Shown here: one piece after another, positions 3,370 through 63,416 of the stretch
Layout of the letters: each line of letters opens with the position of its first letter
Position numbering within the stretch: the first letter of the stretch is position 1
Assembly (NCBI RefSeq): GCF_017875315.1
Contig: NZ_JAGGMM010000003.1
Span: 62,001 to 126,000 of the forward strand
Direction of reading: 5' to 3'
Source of the DNA: Methanomicrobium sp. W14
GTDB taxonomy: Archaea; Halobacteriota; Methanomicrobia; Methanomicrobiales; Methanomicrobiaceae
DNA length: 64,000 nt
The notes under the pieces: model-generated
Database searches by the model: none
What the model saw: only the letters and a program-made list of their open reading frames with translations
Told to the model about the DNA's origin: nothing
Program-made: the position numbers and the translations under genes

Positions 3370-3373
3370 TAAT

Positions 3374-11617: not shown

Positions 11618-12340
11618 TCACCCCATTAGCATGAAGCCAAGTATGACAAAAGACACGATCAGACCGATCATGAGTCCTTCAACTTTTCCTGAGTATACAC
11701 CTGCCGAGAAGCGGTCACGGTAGCCGATATCTGTAATCATCATCTGAATTGTCTTCATCCTTGCGTGGATAAGAGCAAGTTCAGCTGACATCGGCACTTC
11801 CTCGCCTTCCGACTCGCCGGCATCGTCGCCGCCTTCCTTAACCTCGACAACCATGGCGTCGCCCTCAAACGCACCCGGATCGCGGGCTGTGAGCTCATCG
11901 ATTTTGGCTTTGATTGTGCCCAGATCCTCGGTCTCCATAATGTCGACCATTTCGATCTGGTCCTGGAAACGCTTGATTACTTCAGGTGTAAGATTTTCGA
12001 TGAACGGAATTGCACCAGTTGCTCCGACAATCTTTCCGCCCTCAACACCGTTTGCATGAAGGGCTTTTAAGCACTGACCGGAGAGGTGACCCTTTACCTC
12101 CGTTCCGCATGTGACAAGAAAACGGATGTTCGGGTTTGCAACAACGTTTGCGACTATTTTTTCAAGACCCAGGTTTTCAGTCTTACAGGAACCGCACATT
12201 GCAGCGCCTGCATCACAGACTGCCTGTTCGTCAAGGTGTGAACCCATTGTTACAACGACAACAGGACTGTTGGCATCGCCCGCGTGGTAGTCACCCTGTA
12301 TTTTTGGCCATCCTGAGGCCGGAGATTTTTTATCTGCCAT
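11618..12340 (-). CDS. mtrA: Tetrahydromethanopterin S-methyltransferase subunit A (corrinoid protein)
   Basis: A 240-residue corrinoid carrier that shuttles the methyl group between MtrH and coenzyme M. The soluble domain (residues 1-~170) has His85 within EVKGHLSG, equivalent to the cobalt-ligand His84 of the Methanothermobacter protein. A variable acidic linker and a helical segment lead to one C-terminal transmembrane helix of the usual MtrA type. Length is normal for the family. It is followed by mtrF and then by a second, almost identical MtrA domain fused to MtrG. Confidence 0.97.
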
Positions 12341-12350
12341 TTACAACACC

Positions 12351-29261: not shown

Positions 29262-30466
29262 AAAAATACCTCCACTTCATCGCCTGCCTCATATCCTTCC
29301 CTTCCTCCCGGAACCCGGATGACGCCGTCGCTTTTAACCAGAGTGTTCAGTATACCGGATTTTCCGAACAAAGGCTCGGCAAGGTTTTCATCCGTTATCC
29401 TGACACGGACATACTCCTCCCTTCCCTTCTCCGAGGGGAGGCTTTCCGCAAGCTTAACCTTTACAACGGATTCGTTCTCCTTCAAAATTCCCGTCATTTC
29501 TCTTAAAAGATGCCTCACAATTACAGAAAGGACCATATATGTCGCCGCAGGATGACCGGGGATTCCTATTAAAGGTGTATCCTTAATTTTTCCGATTATC
29601 GTCGGTTTTCCCGGCGCAAGCATGACGCCGTGAGCAAGGACTTCTCCTTCGGAATAAACCGCTCTTGCCGTAACGTCCTTTATGTCCTTTGAACTTCCTC
29701 CGGATACCAGGATTAAGTCACATTCAGCAGGAGCATTTCTTAAAATGTCCCTCATGGCCTTTTCATCATCCCTGACAATTCCGAGGTGTTTTGGGATACA
29801 GCCGTGCTTTTTTGCAAATGCAGAGCAAAGATATGTATTTACGTCCCTTACCTCACCGGCTTTGGGTTTTTCATCAACCGGAATAATTTCTATTCCTGTC
29901 GATATTATTCCAACTACAGGTTTTTTTCGGACAGATACCCTGGATGCACCGACTGCTGCAAGGCCTCCTATATCGGAAGCGGAAAGCACGCGGCCCTCTG
30001 CAAAGACAAGCTCACCTTCTGAGAAGTCTTCACCTTCCAAAACAACGTTTTCCCCCGGTGCAACCGGCCTTTTTATGAGGACGTCACCTTCTACCTCGTC
30101 CGTGTACTCGACCATTACGACGGCATCAGCACCTTTTGGCATCTGGCCGCCGGTTGGAATATTCAGGCATTCGCCCGCACCCATTGTCATCCTCTCCCCT
30201 GCTCCCATCGGGATACGTCCCGTAAGCTTAAGCATTGAAGGCATACTGACAGTCGCGTTCACCGTTTCGGCGGCAGATACGGCATAGCCGTCCTTCCATG
30301 ACCTGTCAAAACCGGGTATGTTTATATCCGAATGCACATCTTCAGAAAGGACTCTTCCCACGGCATCCTCAAGAGCAACCGGCTCCGACCCGATAACGGG
30401 GACAATGCTTTTTGCAATCTTCACCGCCTCCTCTACGCTTATCAGATTCAAAAAATCTTTAGACAT
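29255..30466 (-). CDS. moeA: Molybdopterin molybdenumtransferase MoeA
   Basis: A 403-residue MoeA with the standard four-domain layout: FDRSWKDGYAV near residue 55, the MogA-like domain with VSGGSSKDIKDVTAR near residue 255, IPGHPAATYMVL near residue 300, and a C-terminal beta domain ending EVFLW. It catalyses metal insertion into molybdopterin-AMP. The next gene is a second, larger MoeA; two MoeA paralogues are common in archaea and may separate Mo and W use. Confidence 0.92.
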   Translation of the reverse strand: MSKDFLNLISVEEAVKIAKSIVPVIGSEPVALEDAVGRVLSEDVHSDINIPGFDRSWKDGYAVSAAETVNATVSMPSMLKLTGRIPMGAGERMTMGAGECLNIPTGGQMPKGADAVVMVEYTDEVEGDVLIKRPVAPGENVVLEGEDFSEGELVFAEGRVLSASDIGGLAAVGASRVSVRKKPVVGIISTGIEIIPVDEKPKAGEVRDVNTYLCSAFAKKHGCIPKHLGIVRDDEKAMRDILRNAPAECDLILVSGGSSKDIKDVTARAVYSEGEVLAHGVMLAPGKPTIIGKIKDTPLIGIPGHPAATYMVLSVIVRHLLREMTGILKENESVVKVKLAESLPSEKGREEYVRVRITDENLAEPLFGKSGILNTLVKSDGVIRVPGGREGYEAGDEVEVFLW

Positions 30467-38293: not shown

Positions 38294-39994
38294 TCAGAAA
38301 TCCGGTTTTGTTTTTATGCAGTAGTTATCGTGGAGAAAACTTTCCCGGACCGGGTAGTTGCTCAGCTTTACCGTATAATACCGCTCGAACTTCTTTAAAA
38401 ACTCCGGGTCGTGCTCTATGTTGTATTCGTCCGGGACCTCGGGCTTCACCCACAAAGTAGTATTCCTGCCGTTCACAAGGCACTTGCCTTCCTTTGAAAC
38501 CACAAGACCTTTTTTTATCGTATAATCAGTCTTTGAAAAAGCTTTGATTACCTTGTCATACTCAACAGACGGGTCGGTTTCATTAACCTTTATAGGATAT
38601 ACCGCAATGTCCGCATCAGCACCGACGCCGAGGTGACCTTTCCCAAGCGGAACTATCCCGAGAGCCTTCGCCTGCGCAGAACGCGTCATAACGGCTATCT
38701 CGTACCAGTCAAGCTCCCGGTCAAGCGTATGCAGAAGGACACGCTTCTCCGTATCAGGATGGACACGTGCGAACTCAGAGTCCCTGTACTTTTTGCTCAT
38801 CAGAAGTGCCATAATCTTGGGATACTTTACAAATGGTGCACCGTTGGGGTTGTCGGTTGTAAGCATGCACTGCAACGGGTTTTTGACCTGGAGTGCAAGT
38901 TCAAGTCCTATAGCCCACATAATCGAATTCACAAGGTTTTTGCGGCTGTAATATACAGGGATTACACCAGAACCTGTCTCAAGCTCGACGTCATGATTGC
39001 TCCATTTGTTGTGATACAGCCTGTAGAGATTGAACTCCATCGGCCCGTCCGCAGTCATCGTCGTGGTTTTTCCGAACATCACCTGCCCCATGTCTATTGC
39101 AAGCTGCGGTTTACGGTTTACCATCCATGCGATATCGTCGGATTTTGAGCAGAAATCTTTCCATGAAGAACCCCCGTAGGAGTGGAACTGCACATGTGTA
39201 AGATAGAGGGTCTGGCGGTTTTTGTTGAGGTCAGGAGTCCTGTTCATCGTCTCAAGCGTGCACTTGTAGTTGCCAGGTTTTCCTAGGTTGTTGCAGTGGA
39301 GGTGAACCGAATGGGGCATTTTCAAAAGTTCGTTGGCACGTATCATGTAGTCGATAATCTCTGCCGGAGTCACGTCGAAATGCGGGACCTTTTCATGAAT
39401 GCAGGATACGTTTCCGCCAAAGCCCCAGGCTTCGGTCCCCCCCGGGTTCGTAAGTTTCAGCCCGAACCCTTTTGCGGCTGAGATTGTCCACGCGACAACT
39501 GCCGCAGCCTTTTTTAAGTCCTTATCATGAACCGCCTCCATCACAGACCAGTTGCCGTCGAAAAGAGTGTTTGCCATCGTGTCCTGAAGAGTCATCCGTC
39601 GGAACTCTTCATGGGTGTGGCGTGCACCCATCGGGGCCATTGCACCTTCAAGAAGGGTGGTATACCCCATAGCACTGTAGCGATAGGTGTTCGCATATAC
39701 CGTCGGAACGCTGTACCCGGAGACCGCATGCATATTCGGGCAGGCCTTCTCCCTTCCTGCCCTCATATCTTCCGGGCTCATGTACCTCCCGAAGTTCACC
39801 TTCGTCCCGCAGATATGAGTATGCGAATCGATGCCTCCCGGAAGCGTAAGCCTGCCTTTGAGGTCTATGACACCGGGATTGGGACCGGCAGATTCAACGA
39901 TTTTTCCGTCCAGGACAGGGATATCCATAACCTCCCCGTGAACGTTGTTCAGGGGGTCGATGACAAAGGCGTTTTTCAGTATTATTCCGCTCAT
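38294..39994 (-). CDS. fwdA: Formylmethanofuran dehydrogenase subunit A
   Basis: A 566-residue amidohydrolase-fold subunit. It condenses formate made at the W/Mo site with methanofuran. The dinuclear metal motif HTHICG lies near residue 60, with further His residues (SVHLHCNN, THVQFHS) supplying ligands. Full length. It follows fwdDB with a four-base overlap (39991-39994), so the subunits are made together. Confidence 0.95.
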   Translation of the reverse strand: MSGIILKNAFVIDPLNNVHGEVMDIPVLDGKIVESAGPNPGVIDLKGRLTLPGGIDSHTHICGTKVNFGRYMSPEDMRAGREKACPNMHAVSGYSVPTVYANTYRYSAMGYTTLLEGAMAPMGARHTHEEFRRMTLQDTMANTLFDGNWSVMEAVHDKDLKKAAAVVAWTISAAKGFGLKLTNPGGTEAWGFGGNVSCIHEKVPHFDVTPAEIIDYMIRANELLKMPHSVHLHCNNLGKPGNYKCTLETMNRTPDLNKNRQTLYLTHVQFHSYGGSSWKDFCSKSDDIAWMVNRKPQLAIDMGQVMFGKTTTMTADGPMEFNLYRLYHNKWSNHDVELETGSGVIPVYYSRKNLVNSIMWAIGLELALQVKNPLQCMLTTDNPNGAPFVKYPKIMALLMSKKYRDSEFARVHPDTEKRVLLHTLDRELDWYEIAVMTRSAQAKALGIVPLGKGHLGVGADADIAVYPIKVNETDPSVEYDKVIKAFSKTDYTIKKGLVVSKEGKCLVNGRNTTLWVKPEVPDEYNIEHDPEFLKKFERYYTVKLSNYPVRESFLHDNYCIKTKPDF

Positions 39995-41712
39995 TTCCCT
40001 TTCGCCTCCGCGATAATATCCCGTATCTTAGTCAAAACCTCAAGGTCGTTTTGCTGCGGGGAATCCATGACCTTTTTAACCCACAGGGGTATTGCATCAA
40101 GCCTGTACGCAGTCCCCCCGCAGTCAACGCCGCACATCGCAACAGGTATCTGCACGTTAGCCGTAGCAGTCGACATGCTTGGGAAAGGGTCTATTACAAC
40201 GCACGGGATTTTCGAGAGCCTCTCGTTGCACTTTCTCGGCAGGTGTGCTCCCGGATCGCTTCCTATGATGACGCATGCATCAACTTCACCTCTTACAAGA
40301 AGGTCTACAGCCGAAGTCTCCCCGGGGTTGTAAAACGCCGTTCCCCTTGAAAAATCGATTGCATAAGGGTATCCCCCCATATACGTGAAAGTCTGGTTCG
40401 TCCCGTAGACGTTCCAGTGTCCCCTCATAGGAGTCAGTGTGAATTTCGTATGCCTGCACAACTCGTCAACAAGTTCTACTCCGTTTTTGACGTTTTTGTA
40501 CTTGCCCGGCGACTCGGTGAGACCGATGCCGGTAAAAAACACACCGAACTTTGCATTCATGCACATATCGGCGACACGTACAAGCTTCTCTTTTGTAACG
40601 CCGGACACCATATCCGGGATTACGTCGGCTCTTCCCCGGACTATAGCACGAAGTGCCGAAAACACGGCATAATCACCACCGGGCTTTATCTGGATGAATT
40701 CGTCGGCGTTCTTTGCTACATCGGTCTTCCTGATATCAACGACAATCATCTTTCTGTCGCGGAAGGCGTCGTGCAGGAAATACCCGTCGGCATACATGGA
40801 ATACCTGCTCATATGACGGGGATGCGACTCAATCGGGTTTGACCCCCAGTAAACGATAAGATCCGCCCTGTTCTTTATCTGCCCGAGTGTGCATCCGGGG
40901 TGTCCGGCCTCCTGTATAGCCATAATTGAAGGGCCGTGGCATATGGAAGAGCAGTTGTCTATTACTCCGCTTATCATCTCCGCAATTGAGATTCCCATGC
41001 ACTGTGCTTCCCCGTAGGTCCCCGACCAGCCGAAAAGAAGCGGCCTTTGGGCATCAAGAAGCATATCGGCAGTGTAACGGATGGCCTCGTCATAAGTGAT
41101 GTTCTTCCAGCCTGAACCGGTCCTCATAATCGGCTGCTTCAGCCTGTGCTTTGCAAGGAATTTCCCGCTTGAAAGTGCACATCCGTTGTCGACGCCTGTT
41201 ATCTCGTTGTTTTTTATCGTCAGCGTGATATCATCGCACAGGCACCCGCATAAAGGGCAGACGACATCATTTATTACGCAGTCGCCATTCTCTGACTTCG
41301 TGGGGCAGCCGGGGTCAGTGTTGTTATATCTGAGACCCCCTTCAGCCTCAAGAATTTCCCATGCCGAAAGAATTCTGTCCCCGTTTTCAGCCGGGACTAC
41401 ATCAACGTCAAGCCATTTGTAGTCAGGGGCACCTGTCCCGTGCGTCTTTGAGTGAATAATAAAATTGGCATGAGGACCGCACGGAATAAAAACCATTCCA
41501 CGCCTTACATCTGTCGTCGAGACAGTCTTAAAAACGGTCTCCCCCTCGACACTTTTTATACGCACAAGGTCCCCCTCTTCAACACCGATAAATGCCAGGT
41601 CTACCGGGTTGATATAGCACAGGGAAGTCTGGGCCGCATATGAGGGCTGATCCTTGTAATACAGCTGTTCTCCCTGCCTTATTGTACGGCCGCTTGTCAT
41701 CAAAAGTTTCAA
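39991..41712 (-). CDS. Formylmethanofuran dehydrogenase subunit D-B fusion
   Basis: A 573-residue fusion. Residues 1-~130 are FwdD, the molybdopterin-dinucleotide binding beta-barrel (TSGRTIRQGE, GDLVRIKSVEGE). Residues ~150-573 are FwdB, the catalytic W/Mo subunit, with the 4Fe-4S motif CPLCGCLCDD and the active-site region NCSSICHGPS, in which a Cys (not selenocysteine) is the metal ligand. It starts with a TTG at 41712, supported by GGAGG eight bases upstream and by the conserved N terminus; an internal ATG at 41700 is too far from it. With FwdA and the distant FwdC it forms the CO2-fixing enzyme of methanogenesis. Confidence 0.93.
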   Translation of the reverse strand: MKLLMTSGRTIRQGEQLYYKDQPSYAAQTSLCYINPVDLAFIGVEEGDLVRIKSVEGETVFKTVSTTDVRRGMVFIPCGPHANFIIHSKTHGTGAPDYKWLDVDVVPAENGDRILSAWEILEAEGGLRYNNTDPGCPTKSENGDCVINDVVCPLCGCLCDDITLTIKNNEITGVDNGCALSSGKFLAKHRLKQPIMRTGSGWKNITYDEAIRYTADMLLDAQRPLLFGWSGTYGEAQCMGISIAEMISGVIDNCSSICHGPSIMAIQEAGHPGCTLGQIKNRADLIVYWGSNPIESHPRHMSRYSMYADGYFLHDAFRDRKMIVVDIRKTDVAKNADEFIQIKPGGDYAVFSALRAIVRGRADVIPDMVSGVTKEKLVRVADMCMNAKFGVFFTGIGLTESPGKYKNVKNGVELVDELCRHTKFTLTPMRGHWNVYGTNQTFTYMGGYPYAIDFSRGTAFYNPGETSAVDLLVRGEVDACVIIGSDPGAHLPRKCNERLSKIPCVVIDPFPSMSTATANVQIPVAMCGVDCGGTAYRLDAIPLWVKKVMDSPQQNDLEVLTKIRDIIAEAKGK

Positions 41713-44032: not shown

Positions 44033-44899
44033 ATGAGTCAGTCGGGTTCGCAGGCAATACTGAAAAAAGGCCTGAAAAAACTTAAGGAAGAATACGAAAG
44101 GATTAATGTGCCAGTCCCTGTTGCAAAGTATTTCGGCATAAATCCGGGCTGGAACGCTGTTATAGGAACCAGAAAATGCTGCGGTGTTGCAATGAGTTTT
44201 CAGGACAACAACCCCCTTTACGGAAACGATGAAACCGCACAGGACATAAGTCTCCTGGAATCGTATATAGGAAAGTCGCTTTTTGAAGTCGCAGAAGATA
44301 CGATGAAAGACGACCTTTTAAGCAGGCATTCGATAGCACTTGCATCCCTAAACGCCCTGTCCCAGCCTTTTGTAACCGATGAGATGCTAAACTCAAAAGG
44401 CTACAAAACAGGATTTGAGGTAAAGGAGATGGTAAAGCCAACTGATAACCTTGTAATAGTCGGATACGGAGGCCTTGTAAAAAGCTATGCCGGGCGCTGC
44501 AAAGAGCTTCATGTTACAGATCAAAGACCTGCCGAAACGTTTCAGACTACAATTATCGGGGACAGCATAATTAAAGGCCCTCTTGGGATTACCGTTCACC
44601 CGGCGGACGAAAACAGAGAGGTCCTTGAAAACGCCGACGTCGCTCTTATTACCGGGTCCACTCTTGTAAACGGCACGTTCGACGAGGTCTTCGGGTATGC
44701 AAAGAACGCAAGAATCAGAGCCATATACGGGTCAAGCGCCCAGCTTATCCCGGACGTCCTCTTTGAAAACAACGTAAATATAGCTATGTCTGTTGCAATA
44801 AGCGACCCGGAAAGGTTTGAGCACGACGTTTTAAACGCCCCTGACATGGAGATGGCGTTGAGAAAACACCAGAGAAAATACAACACCGGATGCTTCTGA
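44033..44899 (+). CDS. DUF364/DUF4213 putative heavy-metal-chelation protein
   Basis: A 288-residue cytosolic protein. The N-terminal ~130 residues fit the enolase-N-like DUF4213 domain. Residues ~140-270 form a Rossmann-like DUF364 domain with VIVGYGGLVKSYAG, VTDQRPAE and VALITGSTLVNGTFDEV. This family is described as a putative metal- or chelate-binding protein and often clusters with Fe-type ABC transporters. The C-terminal CF ending and the N-terminal GTRKCCGVAM Cys pair could bind a metal. The ATG has GAGGTG 10 bases upstream. Confidence 0.8.
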   Translation: MSQSGSQAILKKGLKKLKEEYERINVPVPVAKYFGINPGWNAVIGTRKCCGVAMSFQDNNPLYGNDETAQDISLLESYIGKSLFEVAEDTMKDDLLSRHSIALASLNALSQPFVTDEMLNSKGYKTGFEVKEMVKPTDNLVIVGYGGLVKSYAGRCKELHVTDQRPAETFQTTIIGDSIIKGPLGITVHPADENREVLENADVALITGSTLVNGTFDEVFGYAKNARIRAIYGSSAQLIPDVLFENNVNIAMSVAISDPERFEHDVLNAPDMEMALRKHQRKYNTGCF

Positions 44900-49799: not shown

Positions 49800-50588
49800 T
49801 CACGCCTTTTTTGCGATTATCCTTGAAACAGGGATTATATACGGAATCCCTTCGTAAAGTCTTACATTAGCACGAATCCCGTAGACTTTCTCCAGATTTT
49901 CAGAATTTATAACATCCTCCGGCTCTCCTGCCGCAACGATTCTCCCTTTCTTCATCATAATGACGGCATCCGAGTACTTCGCCGCCATGTTCAGGTCATG
50001 AATTGCAATAACCGCCGTAATCTTCTTTTTTTTCACGAGCATCCCTATCACCTCCATCACGTCTATCTGGTGCCAGAGGTCAAGGCTGCTTGTCGGTTCA
50101 TCCAGAAGAATAAGTCCGGTCTGCTGCACAAGAGCACGTGCTATAAGGATCTTCTGCTGCTGACCTCCGGACAGTTCATTAAAACCTGAAAGTGCAAGCT
50201 CCTGCATCCCGAGAAGGTTTAAGACCTCCCACACCTCGTCCTCGTCAGATTTCTCCTCGTGCCAGCCAAGATACGGCCTTCTTCCCATTAAGACAACATC
50301 AAAAACACTGTTGGGAAAAGACCTTACCGAATTCTGGGGAACATAGGATATCGACTTTGCAAGCTCCATTCTTCTCATACCGGAAGTGTCCTGCCTGTCG
50401 ACAAGCACCTTACCTGATTTCGGTTCAAGAATCTTGTCGATGCATTTGATAAGTGTGGATTTCCCGGAACCGTTAGGCCCGAGAATGCTTACAACCTTTC
50501 CATATCCTACACTCATCGAAAAATCCTTCAGAATTTCGGTGCTCCCGTAGCTGAAGGAAAGATTTTTAACGGCAAGTTTTATTATCAA
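49800..50588 (-). CDS. Metal-chelate ABC transporter ATP-binding protein (FecE/BtuD-like)
   Basis: A 262-residue ATPase. Walker A GPNGSGKS near residue 38, signature LSGGQ near residue 140, Walker B LILLDEPTS near residue 160, and the H-loop AIHDLNMAAKY are all present. It powers uptake through the FecCD permease encoded just upstream, with which it overlaps by four bases (50585-50588). Confidence 0.93.
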   Translation of the reverse strand: MIIKLAVKNLSFSYGSTEILKDFSMSVGYGKVVSILGPNGSGKSTLIKCIDKILEPKSGKVLVDRQDTSGMRRMELAKSISYVPQNSVRSFPNSVFDVVLMGRRPYLGWHEEKSDEDEVWEVLNLLGMQELALSGFNELSGGQQQKILIARALVQQTGLILLDEPTSSLDLWHQIDVMEVIGMLVKKKKITAVIAIHDLNMAAKYSDAVIMMKKGRIVAAGEPEDVINSENLEKVYGIRANVRLYEGIPYIIPVSRIIAKKA

Positions 50589-51697
50589 GTCCAGTACTCC
50601 TTTCTCCTGCCGCGAAGAATCAGATACAAAAAGAACGGAACACCGATGACAGACATGGTAATTCCAGTCGGAATCACGACCGAGCCAAGCAGATTTACGG
50701 ATATGGCATCAGCAACCAGGAGTATGACCGCACCCAGACCACCTGCTGCCGGAACAAGGTACCTGTGATCGCTTCCAAGGATCATGCGGCCCATATGCGG
50801 TGCAACAAGACCGATGAATCCAATAGTCCCGATAAAAGAGACAATTGCGGCCACAAAAAGACTTGAAGCTATCATTATGTAAATACGTGTGAAATTTGCA
50901 TCAACACCCATACTCTTCGCACTCTCGTCCCCCACAGTCATCAGGTTGAGGTCCCATGCCTTGACGTAAATCAAAGGAGTGCAGATGACCGTTATGGCGG
51001 CAAGAAAAGCTATGCTGTTCCAGTTGAGATCAGACAGGCCACCCATCCCCCATGATGACATTATATCAAGCTGGTCATCATTTGCAATATAGTTGAAAAT
51101 CTGGTTTAAAGCCTGAAACATGTAGTTCACAGCAATTCCTGCAAGTATCAGCATTTCGGATGTCGCTCCCTTAAGAGATGAGAGAGCTATTATAAAACCG
51201 GAACAGAGGACTGCAAACAAAAAGGCGTTTCCCACAAGGAAATACGGACCTCCAAAGAGTACAACCCCGAAAATAGCTGCCAGAGACACCCCAAACTGCG
51301 CACCTGAGGATATCCCGAGGGTAAACGGACTTGCAAGAGGATTTTTAAGAACCGACTGCATAACACAGCCGCATACGCCAAGCCCGAAACCGGCGAGTAT
51401 TGCTCCTGCAACACGGGGAAGCCGGATCTGCCAGACTATATGATCAGCTAAAAGTGTTGTAGGAAACATGCCGGGTATGATCCCGTTTATTACAACGGCA
51501 TACACATCCGTCATTGTTATAGGCATAGGTCCTATCGTTATTATAAGACCAGAAGCTATTGCGGTGATGATAAGCAGAGCCAGCAAAAATATGAATTTTT
51601 TCCATACCGAAAGAGAATGCTTTTTTTCGACTTCGCTAATCTTTCCTGTCCGGGTTCTTTTTATTGAATACGCCTTTTTGGGAACAGGTCTTCTCAT
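50585..51697 (-). CDS. Metal-chelate ABC transporter permease (FecCD family)
   Basis: A ~370-residue permease with about ten helices and the family patches RLPRVAGAILAGFGLGVCGCVMQ, NPLASPFTLGISSGAQFG and FIGLVAPHMGRM. The ATG at 51697 (MRRPVP) has GGAG seven bases upstream; ATG 51721 would overlap the SPFH gene. A positively charged N-terminal tail of ~30 residues is unusual in length. It transports siderophore-, haem- or corrinoid-type chelates. Confidence 0.93.
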   Translation of the reverse strand: MRRPVPKKAYSIKRTRTGKISEVEKKHSLSVWKKFIFLLALLIITAIASGLIITIGPMPITMTDVYAVVINGIIPGMFPTTLLADHIVWQIRLPRVAGAILAGFGLGVCGCVMQSVLKNPLASPFTLGISSGAQFGVSLAAIFGVVLFGGPYFLVGNAFLFAVLCSGFIIALSSLKGATSEMLILAGIAVNYMFQALNQIFNYIANDDQLDIMSSWGMGGLSDLNWNSIAFLAAITVICTPLIYVKAWDLNLMTVGDESAKSMGVDANFTRIYIMIASSLFVAAIVSFIGTIGFIGLVAPHMGRMILGSDHRYLVPAAGGLGAVILLVADAISVNLLGSVVIPTGITMSVIGVPFFLYLILRGRRKEYWT

Positions 51698-51710
51698 ATA
51701 ACTGCTCCCT

Positions 51711-52481
51711 TCACCTTTCAAATGCTTTCACAAGACCTGCGGCCGTTGCCGCAGTGCAGTCACTTTTTTCCGTGCCTGTCGTGACGACAATCAGGTTTCT
51801 TTCTTTTGCAATTTCGGTGAGAGTCTGAAACTCCCTCAGCTTCATTGCAGCAGGAGTCTTTTCATAAAACTCCGCCGCCTCGCACATCCTTTCAGACGCC
51901 TGGAACTCACCTTCAGCAAGAATGATGCGTGCTCTTTTTTCCCTTTCGGCTTCTGCCTGGCGTGCAATTGCACGCAGCATATTTTCGGGGACAGACACAT
52001 CACGAATTGTGACTATATCAACGCTGACTCCCCAGGGTTCGGTAACTTTTTTTATCTCCTCCTGAATCTCCTGGTTTAACGAATCCCTCTCTGAAAGAAT
52101 TGTATCAAGCTCATTCTGCCCTAAAACATCCCTCAGAGTGGTCTGTGCAATAAGGGCGGTTGCGGCTTCATAGTCCTCAACTTCAACAACGGCCTGGCAT
52201 GCATCAGTTACATGGTAATAGATAATTGCATCGACGTCCACGCTGATGTTGTCCTTCGTTATGATAGTCTGTTTCGGAACGTCAAGCTGTCTTACACGCA
52301 GATCAACCCGCACAATCCTGTCAGTTACAAACAATAACGGAAACATCCCGGGTCCTCTTTCTCCTATAAGCTTTCCAAGCCTGAACAGTACAGCACGTTC
52401 ATACTGCCGCGTAATTTTAAAGGAAAGAAGAACTACGGCACAGACTACAATTATAACAAAGATTGCCTCAAAAACACCCAT
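51711..52481 (-). CDS. SPFH/stomatin-like membrane protein
   Basis: A 256-residue protein with one N-terminal transmembrane helix (residues ~5-22), then the band-7 domain (QYERAVLFRLGKLIGERGPG, RVDLRVRQLDVPKQ). A coiled coil with AREAEAEREKRARI-like sequence lies at ~165-200. Stomatin-type proteins scaffold membrane microdomains. It is the first gene of the operon and lies 13 bp before the permease, so it may organise this transporter. Confidence 0.88.
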   Translation of the reverse strand: MGVFEAIFVIIVVCAVVLLSFKITRQYERAVLFRLGKLIGERGPGMFPLLFVTDRIVRVDLRVRQLDVPKQTIITKDNISVDVDAIIYYHVTDACQAVVEVEDYEAATALIAQTTLRDVLGQNELDTILSERDSLNQEIQEEIKKVTEPWGVSVDIVTIRDVSVPENMLRAIARQAEAEREKRARIILAEGEFQASERMCEAAEFYEKTPAAMKLREFQTLTEIAKERNLIVVTTGTEKSDCTAATAAGLVKAFER

Positions 52482-55698: not shown

Positions 55699-56559
55699 CT
55701 AAATGCGCGGGTTTTCCTGAAAATCCTTCTGCCACCATATTTTGTCCTGAAAGGAGGTGTTTTTTAACAGGTAAACCCCGTTTTCGTACACCAGCCTCAT
55801 TTCAAGATAATTTTTTAGAATATCAAACTGAAAACTCTCCTTTAGCATAAGACTGTAACCTACATCCGAAACGGCTTCGTCAACGCTTTTGTATCTGGTT
55901 ACATGCTCTTCTTTTGTAACCTCGACGTTTGCATAAATTCCCATCTGACCTAAAAGGTTGTAGATTATGTTGGGGCACCTTTTACACGGAATCTTTTCGT
56001 TAAAAAGAGAACCCCATATCTCCCTGTAGTTGCGCCTCCATGAAGAGAGCATATCAGAAAACCAGAAAATATAGACATATTTTGAAGAGACTTCGTTCAT
56101 CTTTGAAAGTGCTTCCCTTAAATCAGGAACACCCAGTGAATATGACGCAAAGACGATGTCATACGGGCCGGATAGGTCTTTTAGGGGCACGACGTCCTCC
56201 CATTTTTTCATTACCACGTCTATGTTTTTTATACCCCGGCTTTTTATGTTTCCGTACAGGCAGTCTGTCATACCCGGTGACGGCTCAACCGCTGTTACAT
56301 GTTCGACAAGACTGCTGAGAGGGACTGCCAGGCTTCCAGGTCCTGCACCGATATCCAAAACCCTTGAATGAGGGTTTATGTCCATCGCCTTAATTCTTGC
56401 TGCTGAACCCTTGTAATTATCCTTTTTTACAAAGCTGTCGAATTTTCTGCATTTGTCGGGGTTAGTCCACCTGTCGGAACAACCTGAAGGGTCTTTTTTG
56501 TTGTCAGGCCCGGGGTTGTTCCATGCATAATTCCAGTCTATGCTATAAATATCAGTCAT
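55699..56559 (-). CDS. Class I SAM-dependent methyltransferase (group I)
   Basis: A 286-residue enzyme, a paralogue of the gene at 43.0 kb over full length (WNYAWNNPGPD, DIGAGPGSLAVPL, KMNEVSSKYVYIFWF). It keeps the same Cys residues (GCSDRW, KCRKF), so a metal or cofactor site is possible. It lies 24 bp after the third binding protein and is probably cotranscribed with it. Confidence 0.87.
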   Translation of the reverse strand: MTDIYSIDWNYAWNNPGPDNKKDPSGCSDRWTNPDKCRKFDSFVKKDNYKGSAARIKAMDINPHSRVLDIGAGPGSLAVPLSSLVEHVTAVEPSPGMTDCLYGNIKSRGIKNIDVVMKKWEDVVPLKDLSGPYDIVFASYSLGVPDLREALSKMNEVSSKYVYIFWFSDMLSSWRRNYREIWGSLFNEKIPCKRCPNIIYNLLGQMGIYANVEVTKEEHVTRYKSVDEAVSDVGYSLMLKESFQFDILKNYLEMRLVYENGVYLLKNTSFQDKIWWQKDFQENPRI

Positions 56560-56583: not shown

Positions 56584-57822
56584 CTACCTGTTGTGCCTGA
56601 ATACCGCAAAAGCCACGAATATGCCTGCTATGATTCCGAACACAGGAGCAGGAGATTTCGTAGGTGAAGTCTGTTCCGTGCTCTCAGGTGCAGGAGAAGT
56701 TGAAACGGCAGTCTGTGCAACTGATGAATTTGCACCAGAGCCGAAAGGCTCTGCATAAATCATAAGGTCAGAAAGCTCATCGTCAGTCAGGTCGTAATGG
56801 TAGAACAACGAATAATATTCTTTTACGCGTTCACCCACATCGTAGTCGAAAACATCCGGATAGAACATATTGCCAAGCCATATCATCGACAAAAGGCGGT
56901 TAACAGAAGGTGGTCCTCCCATCCAGCTGTAAGGGCCGTATGGCGCTTCATATACGTCCCCGTCACGCACAGCCCTCAGTGACTGCCAGTCGGAACTATT
57001 TATGATAGTGTTGTAATACTCATGATCCTGGCTGTAGGAAACGATAACATAGTCAGGATCGGTCTTAAAAATGTCTTCCAGGGTATATTCGTCTCCATAT
57101 CCGCTTGAAGCGACGGATTCAGGCCCAAGATTATCTGACAGATAGTCTATTACTTCGGAATGATAGGAGCCTTTGCCGATGAGATTTACAGAATTTCCGT
57201 CAACTTTGGTTACATAGATAATGCTCTTCCTGTTGTCGCCGACCTTGTTCATTCCTTTGTCGAACTCTTCGAGGAGGTCTGCCGTATAGTTGGAAAGCTT
57301 CTCCCCCTGCTCTTCCCTTGAAAGAAGTTCTCCTAAAACCTTATACGACCTTGGGATATCGGAAAGGTTGTTCTGCGTTACAAATGCAAAAGTAACACCT
57401 GTCTGACCCTGGATTTTGTCAAGATCCTCTTTTATGCCATTCTTTGACTGACCAAGATCCAGAACTACGTCTATACCCAGGTCTTTGTTCATCTCCATTA
57501 TCTCTTCGGGGTTCATCGTGGACTTCGCACCGTAGAACTGACCTGTAACCGGAAGGGCCGCAACACGCGGATCTATATATTTCAGCTGTGAATCTGAAAA
57601 CTTCCCCGAAATACTTACAAAGAGGTCAGGATCAACCGAATACAGGACAATCTGTGCCAGCGGTCCTGACGGCGATACGGCGGTAATGTTTACCGGAAGG
57701 ATAACCTCTCTTCCGGCGTCGTCAACGAATGTCCGCGTCTCTTCAGCCGCACATATTCCGCAGAAAAGCGAAGCAAGAATAAACACGAGAAGAAGCATCC
57801 GTCTGGAAAACTCAAAGCTCAT
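56584..57822 (-). CDS. Metal-chelate substrate-binding protein with C-terminal membrane anchor
   Basis: A 412-residue protein. A signal peptide ends near CAAEE (residues ~20-27). The binding domain starts FVDDAGREVILPVNITAV and has a GGPPSVNRLLSMIW motif. A Ser/Thr/Pro-rich linker (residues ~365-390) leads to a C-terminal helix, FGIIAGIFVAFAVF, with a basic end, a layout like archaeal cell-surface sorting signals (PGF-CTERM-like, not exact). Anchoring thus differs from the lipoprotein paralogue at 31.8 kb. It heads an operon with a group I methyltransferase. Confidence 0.87.
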   Translation of the reverse strand: MSFEFSRRMLLLVFILASLFCGICAAEETRTFVDDAGREVILPVNITAVSPSGPLAQIVLYSVDPDLFVSISGKFSDSQLKYIDPRVAALPVTGQFYGAKSTMNPEEIMEMNKDLGIDVVLDLGQSKNGIKEDLDKIQGQTGVTFAFVTQNNLSDIPRSYKVLGELLSREEQGEKLSNYTADLLEEFDKGMNKVGDNRKSIIYVTKVDGNSVNLIGKGSYHSEVIDYLSDNLGPESVASSGYGDEYTLEDIFKTDPDYVIVSYSQDHEYYNTIINSSDWQSLRAVRDGDVYEAPYGPYSWMGGPPSVNRLLSMIWLGNMFYPDVFDYDVGERVKEYYSLFYHYDLTDDELSDLMIYAEPFGSGANSSVAQTAVSTSPAPESTEQTSPTKSPAPVFGIIAGIFVAFAVFRHNR

Positions 57823-58092: not shown

Positions 58093-58703
58093 ATGAAAAA
58101 ATCATCATTTTCTACACAACATTCTCTCTTATAGCACTGCTGGTGATGTGTTCCGGCTGCACCCAGGGTTATTTTGAATCCACAGACACTGTACTGATGA
58201 AACTGGACGCAAATGCAGACCACTTGGATGCACCAGGAAACGCGGAAAAGTCCATAAATATTTTACAGGAGCTGCAGACAAAAGAAGAGAAAATACCCAG
58301 GGAAATGTATCTTGGTTCTGCATCCGAATCACCTGACGGAAATATCACCGCAGTTCTGACAGAAGGCAGTTACAACACTATGCAGCAGCCTGTAATAATT
58401 GCAGAACTCCCGCAAAAATGGAATTTACTCATGGAAGAAGTAAATAACCATCCTGATATCTCAGGTACAGATAAAATCCTTTATACTGATGACATAGGTT
58501 TTCTACTTGGAAAATATCGCTCACTTCCTGACGGCGGGCAAAAAATCGTGACTGAAAAAACTGACGCCGCCAATAACATAGTCTGGGATACGACAATTGC
58601 ATCATCAGACAACACGGTTTACAAATATGGTGACATTATAGGAATATCTGAAAATTCAGTTGAAGGGTATGACATTATATACCACGACCATGAGAATGCA
58701 TAA
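58093..58703 (+). pseudogene. Lipoprotein gene with frameshift in its signal peptide
   Basis: The ATG at 58093, preceded by GGGAGG 13 bases upstream, runs MKKSS... and stops after about 13 codons. In the +1 frame the sequence continues as a signal peptide with an MCSGC lipobox (near 58150) and an open ~186-residue secreted domain to 58703. A 6-base A-run (58096-58101) precedes the break; one extra A would join the frames into a normal lipoprotein. It is either a true recent mutation, programmed slippage or a base-calling error. The domain is not recognised; it has charged, beta-rich sequence. Confidence 0.6.
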
Positions 58704-58754: not shown

Positions 58755-59525
58755 CTATATTTTCGGGGAAATGAAATTCACCTTTGCACCGGTAGAATAA
58801 ATTCTCTGGAACTGGGCACCGGTCATAATTTTTCTGGCCTTGGGGATATCGGTTATAACAAATCCGGAGAGGTCGTTGACACCGTAGTCGAAAAGCTGTG
58901 GTGCAAGGGGAGTCCCGGGTCCCACAACCGTGACTTTCTGTGCGTTTTCGGACAGTTCAAGCAGGTGCGGGAAGCTCTTGTCGTTTATGCTTGCACAGGT
59001 AAGAAACGCAAAGTCGCACCCGGGAAGAAGATACTCGCATGCAGTATACGGGTAATCGCCTACGCCGGGGTCCCACTCGACAATGCTCAAATCACATATC
59101 GGCTCGAAAAGGCCTTCCAGGAACGGGAAATGACCAACTACACAGACCTTTTTTCCTTTAACGTCGTTCTGCGAGTTGATGAAAGGGTCTTTCAGTCTTC
59201 CTTCGACACGCTTCTGCGGCAGAATTTCAACACCGTTTTTTTCTGCGTTTTCAGGACTGTTGTACCATGCCGTAATAGCGGCGCCCCCGGCCGAGGCCTC
59301 TATGAAATTCCAGGACTTCACAAGTTTTGCAACTTCATTTAAGGGTTTTCCCTCCTTGTCTTCGGTAGACTGCGGCGCACGCTGCCAGTAAGCCCTGTAA
59401 GGCGAAATCCCGGCACCCTTACCACTTCTTACAAACGCATGCTCGGTCCCTATCATAATGTCGTCAACAAAGACGTCGTCAGGAATTCCCTCTATCATCG
59501 CATCATAAACTTCCCATGTACTCAA
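58755..59525 (-). CDS. DUF364 putative heavy-metal-chelation protein (second)
   Basis: A 256-residue protein distantly related to the gene at 44.0 kb. An N-terminal enolase-N-like part (residues 1-~110; MIGTEHAFVRSGKGAGISPY) and a Rossmann-like C-terminal half (KVCVVGHFPFLEGLF, ACEYLLPGCDFAFLTCASINDKS, VVGPGTPLAPQLF). It is last in the series after the GTPase and ABC ATPase, with short gaps (113 bp), which suggests a joint role in metal or chelate handling in the cytosol. Confidence 0.82.
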   Translation of the reverse strand: MSTWEVYDAMIEGIPDDVFVDDIMIGTEHAFVRSGKGAGISPYRAYWQRAPQSTEDKEGKPLNEVAKLVKSWNFIEASAGGAAITAWYNSPENAEKNGVEILPQKRVEGRLKDPFINSQNDVKGKKVCVVGHFPFLEGLFEPICDLSIVEWDPGVGDYPYTACEYLLPGCDFAFLTCASINDKSFPHLLELSENAQKVTVVGPGTPLAPQLFDYGVNDLSGFVITDIPKARKIMTGAQFQRIYSTGAKVNFISPKI

Positions 59526-59638
59526 ATTTTACACCCTCATATATTTTAAATTCCAATTCAGCAAGATTTTTCTTTTTTCAACCCGGCCAGGATATTTCGC
59601 AGGAAACTGATTTTGAATAACAAGAGGCTTTTTCAGCC

Positions 59639-60676
59639 TCACCTGTTTATCATCGAGTCAATCATCCCTGAGGAGATTATATCACCGTGGCGCAGGCTGT
59701 TTCTCAGGGACAATAGAATGTTGTCCAGTTTTTCGATTTGAATAAGATTTTTTCTCTCATCATCAGTCGTAACAATAACCTTTGCTATGCCACCGTTTCT
59801 GATAACAATTCTTTTGTCGGCAAAAAGCGCCAGAAGAGGGTCGTGGGTCGACATCAAAATCACCTTTTCGTTTCCGGAAAGAAGTTTTATGGCCTCACGG
59901 CGGTCAATTCCTGCGTTTTCAATCTCGTCGATAAGAATTACCGGCGATGCACTCATAAGAGCGGTATCGGCAATCATAAGTGCACGTGACTGGCCTCCGG
60001 AAAGCTGGGTGACTTTCGTGTCAGGAGTGAACTTTTCGCCGGCAAGAGAGTTTGCGCACTCAAAACACTTTTTTACGACACCATCAACATCAGTCACGAG
60101 GCGGCTTTTTGCATGCATCTCCAAAAATTCCCTGACTGTTAAGTCCATTACAAAGTTCATGGTCTGGGAAAGCTGTGCGACAAGTTTTACACCCGTATCA
60201 AACCTTTGGCTTTCGTCAGGGACGTTTCCGTTGATGAGAATCTTTCTTTTTGTCGGCGTATCCTCCTGGGCCATGCACTCGATGTCTTCCAGAAGCCTGC
60301 TTTTTCCGGAGCCTGTAGGCCCGACGATACTTATTATCTCACCGGGCTTTATCGTAAGGCTTAAATTTTCGGCTTCCCCGGACTTGTTCTGACCGCCGAT
60401 TATTGTAATGGATGATATAACAAATGCTCCCGATTTCGAATCAGGACTGAAAGAATCGAGAAATGTGCATAAGTTCAGCACAATACTCTCGCTGTCAAGC
60501 CCGAACTCCTCAAGCATATCAGGGTCTACATCCAAAAGAGCGTCAGAAAATGCCTTTGAAAGGTCAATTTCATTGAGCCTGTGGTTTGCAAGGTAGTCTG
60601 ATACAAGAGGATACTTCTCTATAAGGGCTTTGAGGGTCATCCCTGTGACTTCATCAGAAAAACCGTAGGCACTCAT
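59639..60676 (-). CDS. Soluble ABC-type ATPase with extra N-terminal domain
   Basis: A 345-residue protein. Residues 1-~80 form a helical domain with TLKALIEKYPLVSDYLANH, resembling DUF1858/ScdA-like domains (weak). Residues ~90-310 are an ABC ATPase: Walker A GPTGSGKS (119-126), signature LSGGQS (225-230), Walker B ending VILIDE (246-251) and the H-loop STHDPLL. No permease is attached or adjacent with it, so it may power a cytosolic conformational step rather than transport. The ATG overlaps the GTPase stop by four bases (60673-60676), hence strong coupling. Confidence 0.75.
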   Translation of the reverse strand: MSAYGFSDEVTGMTLKALIEKYPLVSDYLANHRLNEIDLSKAFSDALLDVDPDMLEEFGLDSESIVLNLCTFLDSFSPDSKSGAFVISSITIIGGQNKSGEAENLSLTIKPGEIISIVGPTGSGKSRLLEDIECMAQEDTPTKRKILINGNVPDESQRFDTGVKLVAQLSQTMNFVMDLTVREFLEMHAKSRLVTDVDGVVKKCFECANSLAGEKFTPDTKVTQLSGGQSRALMIADTALMSASPVILIDEIENAGIDRREAIKLLSGNEKVILMSTHDPLLALFADKRIVIRNGGIAKVIVTTDDERKNLIQIEKLDNILLSLRNSLRHGDIISSGMIDSMINR

Positions 60677-61362
60677 TCGTCAAACTCCATTCTTTTCAGC
60701 ATCCCCATCTGGTAATAGTCGCCGATACGGGTTTCACCCGTGCAGTACGAGCAGATGGCAGCAGGCATTGTAAACCTCAAAGTCCTGTCCTTTAACGTGT
60801 TGATATCGGTAGCCTCGCCGAAATGCTTTGCAAGAATAAATGTTCCCTGCCCTGTTATCCCGTTTATGAAGATTATCTTTGCCTGCGAATTTACCTCCTT
60901 GATGTTGAATGCGAACACCTCACGCTCGGCCTGAGAGACGATGTCACCCTTCGTAACTACGACAATATCAGCGTATTTAAGCATAGGGCCTATTTTTCTC
61001 GGTGTATTGACTCCCGAGAGGTTGTCAATTACGCACACTGAAAGAATCCCCTTTATGTAAGGTGAACACCGGTTGCAAAGACCGGCGCTCTCGGTTATCA
61101 TAAGAGACAGTCCTTTTCTCTTCCCCCATGAAACCGCGTCTTCAATATTACTAACAAAGAAATGATCAGGACAGATTTTTCCCGCAAACCCGGTCTGAAC
61201 GGGAATTTTATTTTCGCCGTATCTTATGTGATCAAATGATGTCAGGGAATCGAACTTGACAACACCTACTTTTCCTTCAGGCAGCCCGAGCGCAGAAATT
61301 GTCTTTATAATTACTGATGTTTTGCCGGATGACGGCGGCCCGGCAACTGTTACTAGCTTCAT
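60673..61362 (-). CDS. G3E-like (CobW/HypB/UreG) GTPase
   Basis: A 229-residue P-loop protein. Walker A GPPSSGKT (8-15), a Walker B-like ITESAGL at 89-95 and the guanine motif TKGD are those of G3E metal-chaperone GTPases such as HypB and UreG. Two Cys pairs (C96/C99, C204/C207) could bind a metal. In the family such proteins insert Ni, Co or Zn into targets. It is coupled to the ABC ATPase and followed by a DUF364 gene, so it may deliver metal into a chelate or enzyme. Confidence 0.75.
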   Translation of the reverse strand: MKLVTVAGPPSSGKTSVIIKTISALGLPEGKVGVVKFDSLTSFDHIRYGENKIPVQTGFAGKICPDHFFVSNIEDAVSWGKRKGLSLMITESAGLCNRCSPYIKGILSVCVIDNLSGVNTPRKIGPMLKYADIVVVTKGDIVSQAEREVFAFNIKEVNSQAKIIFINGITGQGTFILAKHFGEATDINTLKDRTLRFTMPAAICSYCTGETRIGDYYQMGMLKRMEFDE

Positions 61363-61581: not shown

Positions 61582-62367
61582 CTAACCGTCACGCGGGATG
61601 CAGATCTTATGGTGACGCATGGTATTCTCGTAATCTTCAATATTTACTTCCACACCATATACCTTTTTTATCAGGCCGGCAGTCATTACATCTTCAGGCC
61701 TGCCGTCCGCGATAACCTTTCCGTCGTAAATCATCAGGACGCGGTTTGCATACAAAAAGGCATGATCCGGGTTGTGAGTCGACAATATCACAATATATCC
61801 TCCCCCTGCAAGGCCGACGATTCTTTTCATGACCCTGGACTGGTTTCCGTAGTCAAGGTTTGCTGTAGGTTCATCCATAATGAGAATTTTTGCATTCTGG
61901 ACTAGAGCACGTGCAATAAGCGCAAGCTGTCGTTCACCGCCGGAGATTTCACCGTAACCGGCGTTTTTAAGATGAGCTATACCAAGACTTTTCATGGCCT
62001 CGCAGGCCTTGTCTATATGCTCCTGTTTTGGTTCTGAAATAATACTTATCTGGTTCGTAAGCCCCATCAGGACGACGTCAAGGACAGTGAAATTAAACAC
62101 AGGATATGTCGACTGCGGTATGTAAGCCACCTTTTTCGCTATCTGCCTGTGATCAAGAGTCTTTATGTCTGCATCATCCAGGTAAACAGAACCCGAATAG
62201 TCTTTCAAAAAACCGAGGATGCACCGAAACATCGTGCTTTTGCCGACACCGTTCGGGCCGAGAACTGCGAGGAGATCGCCCTCCTTTGCGGAAAATGAAA
62301 CGTCGGACAAGACCTTCCTGGACTTTTTCCGGTACGAAAACGTCAGGTCTTTCACCTCAAGCGTCAT
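61582..62367 (-). CDS. Metal-chelate ABC transporter ATP-binding protein (second set)
   Basis: A 261-residue ATPase. Walker A GPNGVGKS near residue 36, signature ISGGERQL near residue 138, Walker B ILIMDEPT near residue 158, H-loop LSTHNPDHAF. It overlaps the permease gene by four bases (62364-62367). It differs from the 49.8 kb ATPase, so the two transporters are not recent duplicates. Confidence 0.93.
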   Translation of the reverse strand: MTLEVKDLTFSYRKKSRKVLSDVSFSAKEGDLLAVLGPNGVGKSTMFRCILGFLKDYSGSVYLDDADIKTLDHRQIAKKVAYIPQSTYPVFNFTVLDVVLMGLTNQISIISEPKQEHIDKACEAMKSLGIAHLKNAGYGEISGGERQLALIARALVQNAKILIMDEPTANLDYGNQSRVMKRIVGLAGGGYIVILSTHNPDHAFLYANRVLMIYDGKVIADGRPEDVMTAGLIKKVYGVEVNIEDYENTMRHHKICIPRDG

Positions 62368-63416
62368 GAACGCCTGCCTCCCGTAATCAGAAGATACGCG
62401 AATATAGGTCCTCCGATAAAGGAAGTAAGAATTCCGAGCGGAACCTCGATTGAAGCCATAGTTCTTGCAAAGTCGTCAACCAGAAGAAGAAAACCCCCCC
62501 CCATAAAAATTGCGGCAGGAATAATCCTCCTGTAGTCGTAACCGAAGACCATTCTGCAGAAATGCGGTATTACAAGTCCTACCCACCCGATAATCCCGGA
62601 AATGGACACAGAGACAGCTGTTATAAGTGTCGCACAGGCAATAACGACAATTCGCAGGAGGGTCGTGTTAATTCCCATGCTCTTCGCCTCGTCCTCGCCG
62701 ACTGTAAGGACGTTGAGCCTCCACCGGAGAAGAATCAGGGGTATAAGCCCTGCAATTATTATAGGTCCTGCATAAAATATGTCGTTCATCGTGACCGCTG
62801 AAAGGCTTCCCATGAGCCAGTAGGTTATCGCGGGGAGCTGGTCGGTGGTGTCCGCCGTAAGCTTTATGTAGGAAAGGGACGCTGAAAACAGACTTCCGAC
62901 AAGAATTCCCGCAAGTACCATGCTCAATGTGGGCGATCCTCTTGCAAGCCTGCTCACGCAGTATGCAACACCAACGGCTGTCATTCCGCCCACAAAGGCA
63001 AAGAGAGTTACGGCACTGCTTCCAAGGTAAAGATATATTGCAAGGGCCGCCCCGAAACCTGCACCGGCCGAAGCTCCCAGTATATCAGGAGATACCAGGG
63101 GGTTTTGGAACATTCCCTGATAGGCTGCACCTGCCGTTGAAAGTGCAGCACCAACAAGGATTGCGGCAAGAATTCTCGGGAGCCGGATACCGCACACAAC
63201 GCTGTTCATCGCGTAGTCCCACGTGTGCTCAAAAGGGGATATATTTACTAAAGAAAGGATGTTTGACGAAAGAATCTTTACAACGTCGTCTATACATATC
63301 GAAAAACGCCCTATGCAAAGAGAAATAAGGGCACAGGCAAAAACAGCGACAAAAAGAATTACAAATCTCAACCTGTAATCAGGAAGTGTCCTTTCGGTTG
63401 CTTCAGGAATATTCAT
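62364..63416 (-). CDS. Metal-chelate ABC transporter permease (FecCD family, second set)
   Basis: A 350-residue permease with ~10 helices and family patches RLPRILAAILVGAALSTAGA, NPLVSPDILGASAGAGFGA and GWVGLVIPHFCRM. Half-sites ATGTTAA (63459-63465) and CTAAC (63476-63480) lie 40-65 bp before its start. No binding protein is adjacent on this strand; those at 31.8, 53.3 and 56.6 kb are candidates. Confidence 0.93.
   Translation of the reverse strand: MNIPEATERTLPDYRLRFVILFVAVFACALISLCIGRFSICIDDVVKILSSNILSLVNISPFEHTWDYAMNSVVCGIRLPRILAAILVGAALSTAGAAYQGMFQNPLVSPDILGASAGAGFGAALAIYLYLGSSAVTLFAFVGGMTAVGVAYCVSRLARGSPTLSMVLAGILVGSLFSASLSYIKLTADTTDQLPAITYWLMGSLSAVTMNDIFYAGPIIIAGLIPLILLRWRLNVLTVGEDEAKSMGINTTLLRIVVIACATLITAVSVSISGIIGWVGLVIPHFCRMVFGYDYRRIIPAAIFMGGGFLLLVDDFARTMASIEVPLGILTSFIGGPIFAYLLITGGRRS

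Follow-up and report, generated by a model that had tools for sequence, protein, structure and literature searches.

A conserved gene unit of a HypB/UreG-like GTPase, a soluble ABC ATPase and a DUF364 protein, and its link to molybdenum and tungsten, in Methanomicrobium sp. W14

In the methane-producing archaeon Methanomicrobium sp. W14 three genes follow one another on the minus strand and code for a GTPase of the HypB/UreG kind, a soluble ABC ATPase and a protein with the domains DUF4213 and DUF364. We analysed this trio within a stretch of 64,000 nucleotides (the window; C3:62001-126000 of the genome, which comprises 2.54 Mb in 6 contigs). The trio is inherited as a unit and its link to molybdenum and tungsten (Mo/W) is well supported. 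We suggest that it is a cytosolic, nucleotide-driven module for Mo/W trafficking and give this reading a probability of about 0.55; how the module would work we infer further below. Probably, the trio helps to put Mo/W where the cell needs it. The question bears on how anaerobes move these metals from the importer to the pterin cofactor and keep both metals apart. A conserved unit linked to formate and formylmethanofuran dehydrogenases is a testable candidate for Mo/W delivery.

The trio and its inheritance as a unit

The three genes of the trio, each an open reading frame (ORF) whose product length is given in amino acids (aa), are:
60673..61362, minus strand: HypB/UreG-like GTPase, 229 aa (PF02492 cobW, CobW/HypB/UreG, E = 7e-9)
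59639..60676, minus strand: soluble ABC ATPase, 345 aa (PF00005 ABC_tran, E = 1.4e-18)
58755..59525, minus strand: DUF4213-DUF364 protein, 256 aa, TTG start (Pfam DUF4213 E = 2.9e-13, DUF364 E = 1.6e-30)

An earlier note on this DNA had described a three-gene module in which two nucleotide-driven proteins overlap by four bases and are followed by a DUF364 protein. This layout is borne out, as the GTPase and ATPase ORFs have bases 60673-60676 in common and the DUF364 gene begins 113 bp past the end of the ATPase. We used the GTPase to scan 84,980 genomes, obtained 429 related stretches and kept the best 80 (L001-L080). The closest named relatives are metagenome-assembled genomes of Methanomicrobium and Methanocorpusculum, and relatives in archaea and bacteria keep the gene order of the trio, GTPase, ATPase, DUF364 protein. 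A separate ATPase ORF adjoins the GTPase in 76 of the 80 loci. In L054 both proteins are naturally fused, the only fusion in this set; in L017 and L058 the contig ends before the position of the ATPase, and L049 truly has no ATPase beside the GTPase. The DUF364 gene was found at 49 loci. We read its absence from the other 31 as membership of another branch (20 loci), as the contig ending first (10 loci) and as a real lack in L049.

For counts of co-inheritance a GTPase was assigned to branch A, the branch of the window, at an identity of at least 70% to the window GTPase; all others reach at most 63%, and the cut was chosen after this gap was seen. In the 135 genomes compared from the window's class, branch A GTPase is present in 21, DUF364 (at least 50% identity) in 22 and both in 21 (Fisher P = 1e-23). 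Among 45 Desulfitobacteriaceae genomes each is present in 11, and both in the same 11 (P = 1e-10). DUF364 is the invariable third member of the trio in branch A. Chance neighbourhood is therefore rejected, and the neighbourhood search that the earlier note had proposed as a check found the trio to hold as a unit. The sole genome of the 135 with DUF364 only, G081, has no GTPase, and its ATPase ORF (L137, 7116-7910) is shortened and opens in a long DRQT tandem repeat next to an intact DUF364 gene; apparently, the trio has decayed here by repeat expansion. The distribution is patchy in both genome sets, and within the window's genus only one genome in four, that of the window, has the trio. This suggests gain and loss of the trio as a single piece.

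The model of the GTPase (mean pLDDT 89.1) has the SIMIBI GTPase fold of the HypB/UreG type. A Foldseek search gave HypB 2hf8 as best match (E = 1.1e-10, TMq 0.66), followed by HypB 2wsm and UreG, and a profile search returned the same families, with matches to RecA that reflect the P-loop alone. The earlier term "G3E-like" is thus correct in a broad sense, the nearest solved folds being HypB and then UreG. We do not file the protein as HypB or UreG proper because it scores far below both curated equivalog cut-offs (46.4 vs 121.2 bits for HypB and 23.1 vs 204.2 bits for UreG).

Its motifs are the P-loop GPPSSGKT, C64-P-D-H67, C96xxC99, C110 and C204xxC207. In a maximum-likelihood tree of 68 GTPases we distinguish branch A (30 rows, support 97/95) and branch C (15 rows, 100/100). 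Branch B is the remainder of the tree (23 rows), one long branch apart and not a supported group. K14, D38, C64, D66, H67, E91, C96, C99, C204 and C207 are invariant in all 68 sequences from the three branches. Thus, the two Cys pairs on which the earlier note had built its metal proposal (C96xxC99 and C204xxC207) are lacking in no relative, and with the additional conserved C64-P-D-H67 motif six residues of metal-ligand type (C64/H67/C96/C99/C204/C207) are kept throughout. C110 is kept in 30/30 sequences of branch A, in 22/23 of B and in 0/15 of C. In the alignment with HypB, C64 and H67 fall on the Cys and His of the motif GKECH, the metal ligands of the HypB G-domain.

The ATPase model (mean pLDDT 88.6) consists of a helical N-terminal extension, about residues 7-81, and a complete nucleotide-binding domain with Walker A (119-126), Q171, LSGGQ (225-229), D250-E251 and H278. 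In 56 ATPase sequences Walker A, Q-loop, LSGGQ, Walker B with the catalytic Glu and H-loop are invariant or nearly so. The extra N-terminal domain was already recognised in the earlier note; it is missing from the branch C ATPase of the same genome (L082, 259 aa) and from the L054 fusion. The Foldseek matches were general ABC cassettes (MJ0796 among them), which offered no clue to the N-terminal domain. With the DUF1858 part of signal-less binding proteins this domain shares a weak likeness (hhalign probability 79-84%), and in a DUF1858-type test for L033 no Pfam match was obtained at E = 1. The claim that the ATPase has no permease partner stands for the trio ATPase itself, but a metal-type FecC/FecE importer with an ATPase of its own lies next door (61582-63416). 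We also considered that the ATPase is a lost transporter subunit and rejected this, as the pairing with the GTPase is kept in branches A, B and C and the two proteins are fused in L054.

Both domains of the DUF364 protein score above the Pfam gathering score (PF04016 106.1 vs 23 bits, PF13938 50.3 vs 23.5 bits). The protein is a full-length homologue of the solved Dhaf4260 (3l5o; E = 1.4e-94, residues 3-250). A metal link of DUF364 alone is not new, since Pfam describes the domain as putative heavy-metal chelation and a paper of 2010 (PMC2954201) tied it by genome context to the uptake of molybdenum, tungsten and vanadium (Mo/W/V). That paper proposes synthesis of flavin- or pterin-like chelators and mentions ABC transporters, not a GTPase-ATPase unit.

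Gene context and sister branches

Rfam scans at the gathering score covered 46 loci of branch A and 17 of branch B. The Mo/W (molybdenum cofactor) riboswitch RF01055 is present at 5 of the former (L013, L020, L032, L047, L054) and at none of the latter. In L013 and L020 it lies upstream of the GTPase with a gap of about 140-160 bp; the gap to a downstream FecC gene is 84 bp in L013 and 20 bp in L047. In all, it immediately precedes the GTPase gene or the associated FecCD gene at three loci. L013 and L020 are annotated as one species and therefore are not independent. In 28 genomes with 137 copies of RF01055, a baseline that the genome of L020 is not part of, three same-strand placements within 400 bp of a GTPase or FecC start are seen where about 0.016 would be expected. 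Beyond Mo/W, the Rfam matches at the 46 loci comprised cobalamin, tRNA and c-di-GMP, and no others were found.

The protein-coding neighbours of branch A point the same way at several loci. A formate dehydrogenase alpha chain, encoded in L032 by two ORFs (2571-5246), has riboswitches upstream and the trio downstream. MoaC, MoaA and MoeA lie beside the trio in L012, and L013 and L020 carry a MOT1 transporter, an SBP_bac_11 protein and a homologue of the molybdenum storage protein beta subunit (E = 7.7e-75 in L013). MoeA is a neighbour in L047 and L049; in L102 and L104 it is no more than 5 kb away from the trio, and its family was confirmed at both loci. MoaA adjoins in L054. Genes beside the trio include ModA and ModB equivalogs in L146, and L148 has a selenium-dependent xanthine dehydrogenase there. 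The closest relatives of the window are L106 and L107, where formylmethanofuran dehydrogenase genes follow the trio and its binding protein on the same strand. MoeA_N is encoded in 39/39 branch A genomes and in 13/20 branch B genomes (P = 2e-4, a value that ignores phylogeny). Taken together, the linkage to Mo/W genes is strong in several lineages and absent in others.

The list of neighbours holds 208 ORFs from the 46 loci. ORFs below 160 aa or above 800 aa, the methyltransferase and NTPase_1 clusters and the loci L034, L035 and L040 (near-duplicates of L033) are left out of it. Family scans, with the first 25 families listed in each, covered 170 of these ORFs (89 + 81); the other 38 are for the most part near-copies or fragments from contig edges. 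We rejected a hydrogenase or nickel operon as context, as no such family is among the matches listed for the 170 proteins. At many loci from bacteria the gene after DUF364 codes for a class I methyltransferase, sometimes with an NTPase_1 as well. Proteins with a TrmO_N domain recur as neighbours beside the pair and ModAB genes (L074, 7704-8231; L146, 10929-11432).

The GTPase and the ATPase also pair outside branch A. In branch B (20/20 loci and a second copy in L016) the pair is accompanied by a protein with an SBP_bac_6 domain, mostly placed after DUF1858, and with no evident signal peptide. It precedes the GTPase in 20 loci, and a few members have no recognisable DUF1858 part. The hybrid-cluster protein (Hcp) is encoded about 1.3 kb or less downstream of the ATPase in 8/20 loci, and Crp-type regulators are found near some. 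In two archaeal genomes (G184, L103; G181, L105) an A-type trio and a B-type SBP-GTPase-ATPase set share a stretch of about 15 kb. Locus L109 has two B-type pairs on one contig (5671-14971). One of them lies beside ORFs resembling a transporter of the NitT/TauT type, and its GTPase (11659-12342) is the longest branch of the tree.

A branch C copy is present in the window's own genome (L082, C2:308789). The order here is ATPase, GTPase, a COG2000 Fe-S protein and then MMP16, the latter labelled in 12/20 fetched loci and in L082. The ATPase in L113 and L122 and the COG2000 protein in L115 remained unlabelled owing to an overlap rule, and the ORFs are present. In L118, L119, L124 and L130 other ORFs take the place of MMP16, in L118 cysteate synthase and sulfopyruvate decarboxylase. 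PMC12068725 identifies MMP16 as coenzyme M synthase and reports a ferredoxin domain in it, and the legend of Figure 2 in that paper lists an ATPase, a Ni2+-binding GTPase and a COG2000 protein as co-localised with MMP16 and of unknown role. The branch C copies match this set; therefore the window trio is the sister of the MMP16-linked ATPase/GTPase/COG2000 set. Beside the C pair in L118 (82-1023, minus strand), and also in L117, L119, L124 and L130, lies a leaderless-looking binding protein similar to SsuA of the aliphatic sulfonate family. It is a second cytosolic-looking binding protein tied to the ATPase-GTPase family.

Further features of the window

The trio is surrounded by further genes with a bearing on metal uptake and Mo/W enzymes:
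61582..62367, minus strand: FecE-type importer ATPase, upstream of the trio (Pfam; homologues flank the trio in many relatives)
62364..63416, minus strand: FecCD permease, upstream of the trio (family scans; homologues flank the trio in relatives)
56584..57822, minus strand: Peripla_BP_2 substrate-binding protein of the trio-linked importer, downstream of the trio (Pfam)
55699..56559, minus strand: class I S-adenosylmethionine (SAM) methyltransferase, a recurrent type of neighbour (Pfam, relatives)
50585..51721, minus strand: second FecCD permease (family scan)
49800..50588, minus strand: second FecE-type ATPase (family scan)
44033..44899, plus strand: second DUF4213-DUF364 protein (PF04016, E = 5.1e-23)
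39991..41712, minus strand: formylmethanofuran dehydrogenase FwdD-FwdB fusion, a Mo/W enzyme (TIGR03129, 568.6 bits vs cut-off 327.8)
38294..39994, minus strand: formylmethanofuran dehydrogenase subunit A, FwdA (TIGR03121, 765.3 bits vs cut-off 392.75)
29255..30466, minus strand: MoeA, molybdopterin molybdotransferase (PF03453, E = 1.6e-44)
27408..29261, minus strand: second MoeA-type protein, 617 aa (match C3:90800-91237 = window 28800-29237)

The formylmethanofuran dehydrogenase and MoeA genes lie on the same strand as the trio, 17-31 kb downstream of it. Because 17 kb and 28 kb, respectively, separate them from its end, this is a regional linkage and not an operon. The second DUF364 gene, the second FecC/FecE pair, binding proteins and methyltransferases are found in between. 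For the binding protein at 56584-57822 the best PDB match identified by gene is HI_1472 (MolA, molybdate/tungstate; 3psa, E = 3.3e-24), and 4pag, 4ovk and 4hn9, which carry generic names, score higher.

Some further observations concern single genes. The second DUF364 protein has no GTPase or ATPase beside it and is a paralogue possibly serving the same metal. Subunits D and B of formylmethanofuran dehydrogenase are joined in one ORF of 573 aa, as they are in L106. A CRISPR array (24907-27141, 31 matches to Rfam CRISPR-DR7, minus strand) ends just short of the MoeA genes. A radical SAM protein (32890-34680, plus strand), related to the AmmeMemoRadiSam enzyme, directly follows a Peripla_BP_2 protein; by eye its C-terminal third resembles a leaderless Peripla_BP_2, a call that Pfam did not make. 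Between the DUF364 gene and the binding protein lies an orphan ORF of 186 aa (58143-58703, plus strand) with a lipoprotein-like start and no family match.

Proposed role, alternatives and known systems

The textbook route of Mo/W leads from an importer to MoeA. No ATP- or GTP-driven chaperone is known on this route. We suggest that the trio might act in the following steps. Molybdate or tungstate would enter through the neighbouring FecCD/E importer. In the DUF364 protein, the cleft between the domains could hold the metal, a metal-pterin or a chelate. Two ordered nucleotide switches, the GTPase and a dimer of the ABC ATPase, might then load and release the cargo or remodel the receiving protein. 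Finally, the metal would pass to MoeA, to the bis-pterin cofactor or to an apo-enzyme such as formylmethanofuran or formate dehydrogenase. In the sister branches the same pair could work with other cargo partners, the SBP_bac_6/DUF1858 protein by Hcp or the COG2000 Fe-S protein by coenzyme M synthesis. The earlier note had proposed a cytosolic machine for metal insertion or release. The conserved unit and Cys pairs agree with this, and gene context makes Mo/W the likely metal; the module may insert the metal, release it from a chelate or supply sulfur or Fe-S to the same enzymes.

Several observations weigh against a Mo/W role. Some hosts have many copies of RF01055 (26 in G001), and 10 of the 28 baseline genomes have none. 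Only 3 of 39 genomes have MoeA at a distance of up to 10 kb from the GTPase, which is marginal against the 0.81 expected (P = 0.048). The fetched flanks of most branch A loci are free of Mo/W genes, and the 170 neighbour proteins include few recurrent families and mostly singletons. The Methanoculleus-type loci L138-L141 and L145 have subunits of methyl-tetrahydromethanopterin:coenzyme M methyltransferase instead of Mo genes; these were read by eye, the family having been confirmed at other loci. The branch B locus L078 has MoeA, MoaA and MoaC upstream, and the split between A and B is therefore not clean. Finally, the GTPase motif resembles Ni/Zn sites more than an oxyanion site.

Could the pair handle sulfur instead of a metal? 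The Cys-rich GTPase would then carry a persulfide or a cluster and the pair would mobilise a sulfur or Fe-S precursor for sulfido-Mo/W dehydrogenases in branch A, for Hcp in B and for the COG1900 sulfurtransferase of coenzyme M synthesis in C. One chemistry would thus span the Mo/W enzymes, Hcp and MMP16, the best fit to all three branches among the alternatives, and the GTPase Cys pairs invariant in 68/68 sequences and the ferredoxin domain that PMC12068725 reports for MMP16 agree with it. However, branch A is linked to the metal itself by oxyanion importers, MOT1, the molybdenum-storage homologue and the Mo/W riboswitch, and no cysteine desulfurase or Suf/Isc gene is among the matches listed for recurrent neighbours. 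We regard a sulfur carrier as unlikely. The FecC/FecE and Peripla_BP_2 genes that flank the trio at many loci, and the class I methyltransferase (with or without NTPase_1) after DUF364 in many bacterial ones, would also suit a trio in the service of the importer, with DUF364 and the methyltransferase making or modifying a metallophore and ATPase and GTPase stripping the imported chelate of its metal inside the cytosol. The chelator synthesis proposed for DUF364 in PMC2954201 goes in this direction. Yet many trio loci have no FecCD nearby, no peptide synthetase or other siderophore enzyme is among the matches listed, and DUF364 paralogues occur without the pair, as at 44033-44899 of the window. 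We consider a metallophore function quite improbable.

The nearest solved sequences and folds, HypB and UreG, together with the alignment of C64/H67 with the HypB metal ligands, would speak for a chaperone of nickel (or zinc or cobalt), with the Mo/W neighbours reflecting no more than shared anaerobic one-carbon metabolism. The branch C GTPase is called a Ni2+-binding GTPase in PMC12068725. But the Rfam matches at the 46 branch A loci are confined to the four kinds given above, no nickel-enzyme family is among the matches listed for the neighbours, and the placement of the Mo/W riboswitch is left unexplained; a nickel chaperone therefore appears very unlikely to us. We keep Mo/W trafficking as the preferred role of the trio. 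A wider proposal, which we offer tentatively and would not bet on, is that the pair works as a general-purpose delivery engine of anaerobes whose cargo adaptors can be exchanged: DUF364 for Mo/W, the cytosolic SBP_bac_6/DUF1858 protein for Hcp and COG2000 for coenzyme M synthase. If this were true, the passage from importer to cofactor would for the first time include an energy-driven step specific for Mo/W, one that uses two different nucleotides. Unassigned genes of three pathways would be explained at once, and the Hcp, coenzyme M and Mo/W sets would be tied to one machine.

Among the known systems HypB and UreG share the fold of the window GTPase and have a G-domain Cys/His motif at the same place. 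The window GTPase differs from them in its scores below the cut-offs, in the extra Cys pairs and in its ABC ATPase partner, and the context of the pair is Mo/W, Hcp or coenzyme M and not hydrogenase or urease. ABC ATPases of the SufC type resemble the trio ATPase in having full motifs, no permease of their own and cytosolic partners, whereas the trio ATPase has a GTPase partner and a helical N-terminal extension, and no SufB or SufD is among the matches listed. The type II Mo/W importer MolABC has the same Peripla_BP_2, FecCD and FecE architecture as the trio-linked importer; HI_1472 (MolA) is a strong match to the binding protein of the latter, whose Mo/W substrate is putative, but three PDB entries with generic names score higher. 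Dhaf4260, for which PMC2954201 suggests a Mo/W/V context, corresponds to the DUF364 protein over its full length. The MMP16-linked set of methanogens, as branch C the sister of the window pair, differs in that the GTPases are only 39% identical, its ATPase has no N-terminal extension, the gene order is reversed and DUF364 is absent. A literature search that most subscription journals fell outside brought up no paper on the GTPase-ATPase-DUF364 unit, on its riboswitch or on its link to the Hcp and coenzyme M branches, and passages of PMC12915319 and PMC2408646 hold nothing on the trio. Proteins of the HypB/UreG kind and soluble ABC ATPases are each familiar; what is new is that the two are steadily paired and that their third partner can be exchanged.

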